Source: Artemia franciscana
Lineage: Eukaryota; Arthropoda; Branchiopoda; Anostraca; Artemiidae
Assembly (NCBI RefSeq): GCF_032884065.1
Contig: NC_088864.1
Location: forward strand, 20,167,999 to 20,231,998
Reading direction: 5' to 3'
Length of the DNA: 64,000 nucleotides
Part shown: positions 5,830 to 38,500 of the stretch, piece by piece
How the letters are laid out: each line of letters starts with the position of its first letter
Numbering within the stretch: the first letter of the stretch is position 1
Translations under genes and position numbers: made by a program
Notes under the pieces: generated by a model
Databases searched by the model: none
What the model was told of the DNA's origin: nothing
The model's input: the letters and a program-made list of their open reading frames with translations, nothing else

Positions 5830-7030
5830 TCAAGGTCATAGGGTGGTAAATCAGCAATTTCATATTCTGACATGAATTCAGTTCCTCCTTCTTGTCTATC
5901 CTTTTTAACTAAATATAGATGTTTTATCGTGGACTTGATAAGCCTAGCGTCACGAAATATTAAAAAACAAAAAACAAAAAAAAACATAAAACAATGATGA
6001 AGGGACAGGAAAATCAGTAATTTTTTCAACGTTCCTTATAGCATATTTTATATTTCTGAAAAATAAAAATAAGACAGTACCATAATTTTTTTCAGTTTTT
6101 AGTCACATTTTTTTTCTAATTCAATGTGATTGTTGCTGTTTCTTTTTCTATGCCATTATCTTTAGCTTTTCAGGGTCACCTTATGTAAATTTGAAAACTG
6201 ATTTCTCCATCTGGTTCATCGTTTGCAAGCTCACACACGGTAGACTAACACATTTCTTCATTCCATTGTAATTTTGCTTTGTTCTCTAACCGTAGATTTT
6301 GTTGTTCAACATTTTTTTTTTTTTGCAAATCAATGTAATTTTTGCTGTTTCTTGTTCTATGCCTATTTCTTTAGCTGTTCAATGGTATTTGTCATTTTTT
6401 TTCGTAATTTGGATGCGCCATAGATACTAAAACGGTACGACTACCCCTAGGGAAAAATGATGTAATTTTGATTTTATATATATATATATATATATATATA
6501 TATATATATATATATTTTTATATATATATATATATATATATATATATATATATATATATATATATATATATATATATATATATATATATATATATATATA
6601 TACAGACGCCAAAATAACTTCATTCTATTCCAGGGTGGTCAAGAAATTCAGGTGTGAATTCATTTTCTCTTTCCTGTGTATCTTTGCAGACGCTAATATA
6701 ATACTTCTTCATTTTAGGGTGACAAATCAGCAGTTACAATTGAATTAATTAATTCTGACGTGAACTCAATTCTTTCTTCCTGTTTATCCTTCACATACTT
6801 ACGCACGCTCAACTAACACCTTCCTTCATTCCATTATAATTTTGCCTTGTCTTCTAACAGCAGGTTTCGTTGTGCAACGTTTCCCTATGTTGTTTAAGGT
6901 TATTTTGGCTGTTTCTTGATCCATCCCCGTTTCTTTAGCTGTTCAGAGTCATTTGTCATCTTGTGTAATTTTGCATGCGTTATAGATACTAAAAACAATA
7001 CGACTACTCCTGGTAGGAAAATGATGTATC
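5830..7030 (+). repeat. Degenerate tandem/segmental repeat, about three units
   Basis: Several blocks recur in order: 'gggtggtaaatcagca' / 'gggtgacaaatcagca' (about 5840, 6717); 'cttcattccatt.taattttgc' (about 6256, 6822); 'ctgtttctt.tctatgcc..tttctttagct' (about 6136, 6341, 6909); and a block ending 'agatactaaaa.cg/aata' followed by 'cgactac.cct.g.aaaaatgatgta' (about 6421, 6981). The (TA)n tract lies inside one unit. No coding capacity is evident. Confidence 0.6.
6474..6602. repeat. (TA)n microsatellite, ~129 bp
   Basis: Almost pure TA dinucleotides with one TTTT interruption near 6515. Any reading frame here is a low-complexity artefact of alternating Tyr-Ile codons. Confidence 0.95.
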
Positions 7031-7279
7031 CTATGCTCTTGAAATGTATACAAGTACGACTCACTCGCATGCATTTTACCAAGATTAAGGTTATCAACGA
7101 ATTTTTTGAAACCCGTGACCTATCTAGGTCGTTTTTTTCAGGCCACAAGATCTCAGGGCGCCAATTTTCAGAAAAAAAGAAAAATAATAAGCCGTTTTTA
7201 AGAATAAATGTATAAATCCATACACAGTTGCTCCTTTAAATGGAGCAGATGGGTTCCTATATTGCAGCTGGTGTTTCGC

Positions 7280-35500: not shown

Positions 35501-38500
35501 ATTAACTTGCACCCAGTAATTTCATAGTATTAACAGACATTTCAGGCGAGATGGGGCAGGAGAAAGAAGGGGGAGTTTTTAGGAAACTAATTGTTAAAAC
35601 TCTTGTCTTTAAAGAGTTGACTCTCCTATCACTAGCAATAGCTTCGTCTGATATTGATTCCAAGATGTCCATAGGGTTACTTTTTAGATTTTTAAAACAT
35701 GTTTCTAAAACAGTTAAATCGTCAACGAATTTCTATCTATCCGGAAAATCGACACCAACACTATTTATCATGGTAAGAAATTAAATTGGGCCTAATAGGG
35801 TTCACAGGGGCACACCATTATAAATAGGGAGGGGATCAGAGTATACTTTCAGGTATTTGACGACATGCCTTCTATTAGAAAGGAAGGACGAAATCATTCT
35901 TATTAAATAGGGGTCAACTAGAAAGTTATTGGTTAGTTTTTTTTTTTACTAATGTATTGTGGTCATTTAAATCAAAAGTTTTTTGTAAGTCAAATGCGAT
36001 AACATTGAGCCAGGTATTGGGTTTTTTAAGTTTGTTACATATAGTGTCCAAAAGATGAACAAGATAGTGTGTGGAAGAAGTAGAGCGCAAATTTCCGAAT
36101 TGCCTTTGGTCAACATCTGTGATTATTTTTACTTTCAACCAAACAGCTAAAAAGTTTTCATATAACTTGAAAAAACCGGAGTAAGAGTAATGGGCCGGAC
36201 CCCAGCAAAATCTTGTTTGCTACCCTTCTTTTTTTACGGGAGTACAAAAACCTAATTTCCAACAATCAGGGAACTTACCATTAGACGTAATTTCATTAAA
36301 AAGTACGGACAAAGGTTCTGAAAGAATGTCTGCAAAGGCTTTAATTAGTACAATTGGGATGTCTAGTGGACAGGTGCTGCACTTTTTAATGTTTTTGATT
36401 TTTGCCTCAACATCTGAGGGCAAAATAATAGGGAGACTGGGAGAATGTAGATCATAAGCAGTATTAATAAAGAGGGGAAGGAGGCTTTGAACTATGGAGG
36501 AAAGAAATTTATTCAGATCATTGGCTGTAATAAGAGGTTCTTCTTTAAATGGAAATCTATATTATTATGTGTTTTCCCACAATTTTTTTTTATACGTTTG
36601 TACCACTGTTTTGGCTCAGTAGAAAACAAATCCCTGACTTTACATTTGTAATACGCAGAAGCAGATCTACGTATTTCTTTTTTTGTATGTTTACGCAGTG
36701 ACTTTTTAATTGAACTTTTTTAACTGACTAGTAATGTAAGGTTTGTCATTAGGACACGATTTTACTTTTTTCTCAGGGAAGGATTCTAAGTATTTGATTT
36801 TAATCAGATTTTGGAAGTATGACGCTTTAACATTAATGTCATTATTCCCGTTAAGAGCTGACCAGTTTTCATCAAACAGTTCGTGGTAACAAACTGTAGT
36901 AAGGAGCGACCCGGCTCAATAGTAAACAAAACTCTAAAAAACGAAAGTTTGATGTTAAAAGATACACAAAAAAATCGGATTTTCATGCTGATTTTAAATA
37001 TATAAGTTTCATCAAATTTAGTCTTTGTCATCAAAAGTTACGAGCCTGAGAAAATTTGCCTTATTTTGCAAAATAGAAGGAAACACCCCCTAAAAGCAAT
37101 AGAATCTTAATCACACCGTCGCATTCAGCGTATCAGAGAACCCTATAGCGAAAATTTCAAGCCCCTAACTACAAAAATGTGGAATTTCGTATTTTTTGCC
37201 AGAAGACAGATCACGGGTGCGTGTTTATTTGTTGTTTTTTTTTCTTTTCCCCAGGGGTCATCGTATCGAACAAGTGGTCCTAGAATGTCGCAAGAGGGCT
37301 CATTCTAATGGAATTGAAAAGTTCTAGTGCCCTTTTTAAGTGACCAAAAAATTGGAGGTCAGTTTTTTCCCAAAGTCAATGGATAAAATTTTGAGATAGC
37401 CATTTTGTTCCGCATAGTCTAAAACCATTATAAATATGTCTTTGGGGACGACTCACTCCCCACAGTCCCTGGGGGAAGGGCTGCAAGTTACAAACTTTGA
37501 CCAGTGTTTACACACGGTAATGGTTATTGGGAAGTGTACAGGCGTTTTCAGGGGGATTTTTTTGGTTTGGGGGGGGGGGGTGAAAGGAGAGGGCTATGTG
37601 GGAGGATCTTTCCTTGGAGGAATATGTCATGGGGGAAGAGAAATTCAATGAAAAGGGCGCAGGATTATCTAGCATTACTATAAAAAACAATGAAAAAATA
37701 AACATGAAAGTTTTTTCAACTGAAAGTAAGGAGTAGCATTAAAACTTGAAACGAACAGGGATTATTACGTATATGAGGGGTTCTTCTTCTCCTAAATACC
37801 TCGCTCTTTATGCTAAAGTATTTTTAGTAATTTCAACTATTTATTCTACGGCCCTTCAGATGCAGGGGTCATTCTTAAAGAACTGGGACAAAACTTAAGA
37901 TTTAGTGTAAAGAGCGAGGTATTAACGAGGGGACAAACCCCCTCATATACATAATAAAATATAAGAATATAGAAGTTTGTAGAGAGTAGCGTAATAGAAG
38001 TAGCGTAAAGAGCGGGGCGTTGAGAAGGGAACATCCCCTTTCATACACGGAGTAATTTCTGTTCGTTTTAAGTTTTAACGTCGCTCCTTACTTTCAGTTA
38101 AAAAAGATAGTTTTTTTTTATTTAATTAGTAATCCAAGATCCAAACTCGAAAAGGCCTTCATTAGAAATTGGACGATAAGAGAATCGGGTAACAGAAAAT
38201 GTATGATTAAAGTTGGAAAGAGGCTTCATTACTAAACAAAAATGGTAGCTTACTCCTAAAGGGGGCAAAGGAACAGGTAAGCTATAGAGTGTGCATATTC
38301 GTGCAAATCAGATCAAGAGTAGTATTTCCTTTGGTTGTTGACATTTTTACTATTTGTTTTGAATTGAGGGAACTACAAAGGGAATTTAACTTTAGATCAT
38401 TGGCATCACCAACTAGGAAAAAACCAGCGTTTAGGAATTTGCAGAGGCTGTCTTTGTGCAGCGTTTTGATTTTAGGAATTATAATAAAAGCAAAAAACAA

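Follow-up and report, generated by a model that had tools for sequence, protein, structure and literature searches.

Introduction

Haplotypic duplication at contig ends is a described class of assembly error in which two adjacent primary contigs have facing ends that are allelic and that differ from each other at the level of haplotypes; this class is the target of the program purge_dups, and, according to the account of Guan et al., heterozygous overlaps are not identified by purge_haplotigs (PMC7203741). A related phenomenon, the false gene gain by heterotype duplication, has been described in vertebrate assemblies, where a diverged haplotype placed beside its allele mimics the duplication of a gene or of a piece of a gene (PMC9516828). 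Here, we analyzed a stretch of Artemia franciscana DNA of 64,000 nt, from here on the window, where a block of 15 kb is found twice, in tandem, on both sides of a gap. A preliminary description of this DNA had interpreted the arrangement as an assembly artefact made of unmerged overlapping contigs, and this reading is supported by the geometry of the block, the gap length, the divergence between the copies, the gene layout, and the likely source pipeline. From the sequence comparisons reported below, the 15-kb tandem is almost certainly a heterozygous overlap of contig ends that was retained as a false tandem duplication, i.e., an artefact of the known class, and the genome would contain no genuine second copy of the block.

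Results

Geometry of the Duplicated Block

The window was compared with itself by BLAST, and the matching segments were then subjected to global alignment. The top self-match was between positions 6772-21808 (copy A) and 21909-36945 (copy B), each of 15,037 bp and in direct order, and the block coordinates given in the preliminary description were therefore exact. The alignment of these two segments, which had been proposed there as a check, gave an identity of 98.5% including gaps, with 82 mismatches, 16 gaps, and 142 gapped columns in the self-BLAST, and the longest run of identical sequence in both copies was 2,522 bp, a similarity far above chance. Both analyses placed the final base of copy A (21808) and the first base of copy B (21909) at the edges of a run of 100 N (21809-21908), and this was the sole N run found in the window. 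The earlier claim that one copy ends and the other begins exactly at the gap thus held. Copy A is most simply read as the right end of the left contig, carrying one haplotype of the overlap, and copy B as the left end of the right contig, which would carry the second haplotype of this segment.

This arrangement is the one expected for a heterozygous overlap, because the homology extended to both facing contig ends, at 21808 and 21909, and a scaffolding gap of 100 N separated the copies. When overlapping contigs are set end to end, the repeated block necessarily starts with the second contig and stops with the first, and the coincidence of its inner boundaries with the gap edges is automatic. 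The alternative is a real and recent tandem duplication of 15 kb, comprising Atox1 exons together with the 3' end of a ZDHHC15B-like gene, whose junction was replaced by the gap. Two slightly diverged copies in direct tandem order have the look of such an event, and the gap would hide the junction; however, the breakpoints of a real duplication are expected to be independent of assembly gaps, and here both inner boundaries were gap edges. The duplicated unit would have to start exactly where one contig starts and to stop exactly where the other one ends, and this requires two coincidences. With the boundary evidence described below, we regard a real duplication as highly unlikely.

The offset between the copies was 15137 at both ends of the block, and the alignment positions showed that it varied from 15123 to 15174 in between. 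The preliminary description had used this constant unit length as an argument for the artefact. The equality was indeed observed at both ends, but it has no value as evidence, because the indels between copies A and B cancel each other: 71 bp are absent from each copy, giving a net difference of zero, an outcome with a probability of about 1.4% if the signs of the indels were random. The exact balance has probably arisen by chance, and none of the rival explanations accounts for it either.

Differences between the Two Copies

The 82 substitutions were found in 14,966 aligned columns, i.e., 0.55%, and the value rose to 0.65% when the indels were included (98 events). Transitions accounted for 46 of the substitutions and transversions for 36. 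The indels measured 1-45 bp; six of the 16 were of at least 10 bp (10-45 bp), and six of the 16 were read in the alignment list as clear length changes of mononucleotide runs. For comparison, the heterozygosity of A. franciscana was estimated from k-mers as 0.655% (PMC7955100), and both of our figures, 0.55% for substitutions and 0.65% for all events, are close to this one published estimate. The differences had earlier been called allele-like, and both the level and the kind of divergence fit two haplotypes.

Next, the distribution of the differences along the block was analyzed in bins of 1 kb. The first nine bins (6772-15771) contained 74 of the 82 substitutions and 14 of the 16 indels, and the last six bins contained eight and two, respectively. 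The variance-to-mean ratio was 6.1, and not one of 5000 random placements was as uneven. Such a mosaic of dense and sparse differences fits recombining haplotypes. From 15772 to 21808, the copies were nearly identical, and a haplotype block boundary is perhaps found near 15.6 kb. The stretch with dense differences includes a repeat array at about 13.1-15.6 kb, where differences may accumulate for other reasons.

These data also bear on the explanation that both copies derive from one haplotype, the second being a duplicate rich in sequencing errors. The six clear changes in the length of mononucleotide runs are of the type that this mechanism would leave behind; however, the 82 substitutions, the six indels of 10-45 bp, and the clustering of the differences are unlike read error. 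Moreover, the exon stretches of Atox1 and of the ZDHHC15B-like gene match the annotated proteins exactly in both copies. The long indels are like polymorphism and unlike read error. In view of the nature of the differences and of their clustering, duplication by sequencing error was rejected, and we assign it next to no probability.

Genes in the Duplicated Block

Two Atox1 exons were found on the forward strand of each copy. The exon containing what we take to be the metal-binding motif is located at 8173-8250 in copy A and at 23297-23374 in copy B, and both are exact matches to residues 46-71 of the A. franciscana protein P0001. The last exon is at 10591-10725 in copy A and at 25760-25894 in copy B, and again both match exactly, in this case residues 71-115. 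The identity between the Atox1 exons and this protein was 100% over 69 residues, and its residues 1-45 were not detected in the window.

The preliminary description had predicted that Atox1 would appear as two genes. The exons are present in both copies, as predicted, but a pair of clean Atox1 entries for the 67.3-Mb scaffold was not found among the database matches listed. Those matches contained, for the same scaffold, one Atox1-bearing protein of 115 aa and two ninjurin-Atox1 fusion models, P0241 (183 aa) and P0242 (199 aa). Both fusion models have Ninjurin and HMA domains, with ninjurin exons spliced to the Atox1 exon, and the names found for these models were ninjurin-2-like isoform X4 and LOC136038474 isoform X2. 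The two could be isoforms from a single gene or could represent separate genes, one in each copy, and since the Atox1 exons encode identical residues in copies A and B, the models are assignable to neither copy. The fusion could reflect read-through transcription, or it could have arisen during annotation if a short first exon of Atox1 was missed; ninjurin exons were looked for in the window and were not detected. The protein searches covered sequences of 0.55-1.75 times the query length, in clusters at 90% identity, a range from which shorter or longer Artemia models could escape, and the matches listed were the best 120 of 592 for Atox1, the best 120 of 2,110 for the ZDHHC15B-like protein, and all 67 for the fusion models.

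The ZDHHC15B-like gene is on the reverse strand and runs from single-copy sequence into the block. Its upstream exons, at 62667-62575, 61318-61199, 54318-54097, 50913-50782, and 48210-48082, are present once, match the A. franciscana protein P0121 exactly, and span 48082-62667; an additional partial match was observed at 63947-63924. The exon at 54 kb encodes the DHHC domain (Pfam, E 2.2e-28). Collinear with these, the next-to-last exon is found in copy B at 34572-34724 (residues 281-331 of P0121), and the last exon of this copy is at 32544-32579 (residues 333-344). When six exons of this gene were compared with P0121, the identity was 100% over 283 residues, and residues 1-40 of the protein were not detected in the window. 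The same two 3' exons recurred on the reverse strand of copy A, at 19402-19554 (residues 281-331) and 17374-17409 (residues 333-344), as orphan second occurrences, and no further exons of this gene were found in that copy. The tail of the ZDHHC gene had been expected to form a separate piece, and, in agreement, its last two exons in copy A are severed from the rest of the gene.

Ten open frames were searched against Pfam. One match, to DHHC, was above the cut-off; matches to HMA (Atox1), FlbD, and DUF6451 were below the cut-offs, and the remaining six frames had no match. No RNA family was found in the window at the gathering score, and no tRNA was detected by ARAGORN run with the bacterial code. 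The locus was not named in the titles or abstract openings of the literature matches listed on false or haplotypic duplication in Artemia.

Boundaries of the Block and Neighboring Repeats

Contigs commonly break at low-complexity tracts and dispersed repeats, and both kinds of sequence were found next to the outer boundaries. A (TA)64 tract with 98% matches was detected by Tandem Repeats Finder at 6475-6602, and 169 bases separate its end from position 6772, the counterpart of the base with which the right contig starts; this tract is a plausible cause of a contig break. On the other side, a dispersed repeat extends over 36871-37977 and is 82.7% identical to 57311-58462, and the end of the left contig lies about 75 bp within the copy-A counterpart of this repeat. 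We infer that the contigs broke at these two elements. A real duplication would require that the unit cut the dispersed repeat about 75 bp in, and that it did so exactly at the contig end.

Regions of 3 kb around each outer boundary were then compared. The microhomology before 6772 and after 36945 was 0 bp on either side, and within these regions no homologous repeats were found at both outer boundaries, since the significant matches lay hundreds of bases or more away. One of these was a match of 57 bp with 77% identity between 5375-5431 and 37368-37423. Most of the matches paired 7284-7665, inside the unit, with 37.7-38.1 kb, i.e., 0.77-1.18 kb beyond the unit end, with 70-79% identity in the three longest matches and 85-89% in two short ones. 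Some of the matches between these two places were inverted. Because none of the shared repeats is placed at a boundary, they fail to explain the observed edges, and a tandem duplication by recombination between repeats was rejected for the 3-kb regions compared, where neither microhomology nor a repeat shared at the boundary was found. A real duplication made by end joining requires no boundary repeats and is compatible with this result; nevertheless, the absence of microhomology, together with the placement of the shared repeats away from the boundaries, speaks against a real duplication.

Other repeated sequences were observed in the window. An array whose diverged units show a similarity of about 66-79% occupies 13149-15551, with its copy B counterpart at about 28302-30715. 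Related pieces were observed at 5.4-5.5 kb, at 37.2-37.5 kb, and, within the dispersed repeat, at 57.69-57.97 kb, and the array may thus be part of a family of mobile elements. A palindrome of 299 bp was found at 58728-59026 (92.7% identity over 302 columns), and its arms are similar to the terminal portion of the repeat 36871-37977/57311-58462 and also to 7284-7665; this palindrome is probably a hairpin-forming mobile element. Four open frames on the reverse strand of 19777-21424 resembled, by eye, remnants of a LINE reverse transcriptase, and none had a Pfam family at E 0.1. The 32-bp indel between copies A and B at 20341 falls among these frames.

Likely Source Assembly and Probable Retention of an Overlap

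According to their database entries, P0001 and P0121 are both located on a scaffold of 67,337,973 bp. The longest scaffold of the A. franciscana assembly JAVRJZ of Jo et al. (2024) is also 67,337,973 bp long (PMC11492255, Table 1), and the window appears to belong to this assembly. As described in the assembly sections of that paper, 14 female adults were pooled, a PacBio 20-kb library was used, and the contigs were generated with Peregrine and then treated with Purge Haplotigs; linked-read scaffolding with 10x data (ARCS, LINKS, and Tigmint) and Pilon polishing came before RagTag, and the RagTag ordering on the A. sinica assembly was the last step, after Hi-C scaffolding 'did not work well' (PMC11492255). 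This pipeline would thus have steps able to keep an overlap error, namely Purge Haplotigs and RagTag. Were the tandem real, reads from a 20-kb library should often span a unit of 15 kb, and this is a further argument against a true duplication.

The length of the gap is the RagTag default, 100 bp, which, according to the description of the program, also applies under gap inference whenever the inferred size falls below 1 bp (PMC9753292). Overlapping contigs give an inferred gap of less than 1 bp, and hence a RagTag gap of 100 bp when inference is on. The join at 21809-21908 could have been made by RagTag or by the earlier linked-read step.

The sample also suggests a particular form of the overlap explanation, where the copies represent a single locus as carried by Z and by W, in a region of the sex chromosome that is young or recombining. 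The assembled animals were females (ZW), and W contigs were extracted from chromosome 1 by coverage, as stated in PMC11492255; moreover, both genes are on the longest scaffold, which may be chromosome 1. However, 14 pooled females supply many haplotypes of any region, and since the divergence of the copies equals ordinary genome-wide heterozygosity, no sex linkage is needed to explain it. We consider a Z/W origin of the copies quite unlikely.

Other data on this assembly are in line with retained duplicates. The duplicated BUSCOs were 15 of 255 (5.9%), and a two-copy k-mer peak was reported, which in the words of the authors may explain the larger assembly size (PMC11492255). For A. franciscana, k-mer analysis gave a genome size of 867 Mb and flow cytometry one of 930 Mb (PMC7955100), and an independent assembly of this species, GCA_036172535 of Bett et al., purged with purge_dups, is of 1.13 Gb (PMC11492255, PMC10827361). 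The excess of JAVRJZ (1.27 Gb versus 867-930 Mb) is thus an uncertain indicator, because the independent assembly is also large even though purge_dups was applied.

Discussion

Collectively, these observations point to an overlap between two haplotypes that was retained through the assembly, and the following sequence of events would account for it. The contig of haplotype 1, assembled from a heterozygous pooled brine shrimp sample, would have terminated inside the dispersed repeat, at the base now numbered 21808, and the next contig, of haplotype 2, would have started just beyond the TA microsatellite, at what is now 21909, both contigs representing the same 15,037 bp. The haplotig purger would have retained both of them because neither was contained in the other. 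Scaffolding would then have ordered the contigs correctly and inserted the conventional gap of 100 N, with the result that one locus was printed twice.

This has practical consequences for the users of the sequence. If the window comes from JAVRJZ, this assembly shows the Atox1 exons twice, along with two orphan exons of the ZDHHC15B-like gene, and copies A and B should be treated as alleles in analyses of copy number, gene family expansion, heterozygosity, and synteny at this place. The proportion of duplicated BUSCOs and the two-copy k-mer peak suggest that there are further such places in the assembly. Should the Z/W reading prove true, the differences between the copies (82 substitutions and 16 indels) would serve as ready sex-linked markers rather than represent ordinary heterozygosity.

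With regard to the described systems, the locus is like the haplotypic duplication at contig ends of PMC7203741 in its adjacent primary contigs, allelic facing ends, and haplotype-level divergence, and the retention of both contigs by a purger aimed only at haplotigs is also what that account leads one to expect for the Artemia case. No difference from this class, as it is outlined there, was seen; purge_dups makes its calls by read depth, and the comparison made here is one of sequence. The resemblance to the false gene gain by heterotype duplication described in PMC9516828 is found in the effect, since here too a diverged haplotype beside its allele imitates the duplication of a gene and of a gene piece. 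In contrast to the vertebrate assemblies covered by that description, the present case comes from a brine shrimp, and only one small gene and two 3' exons are affected.
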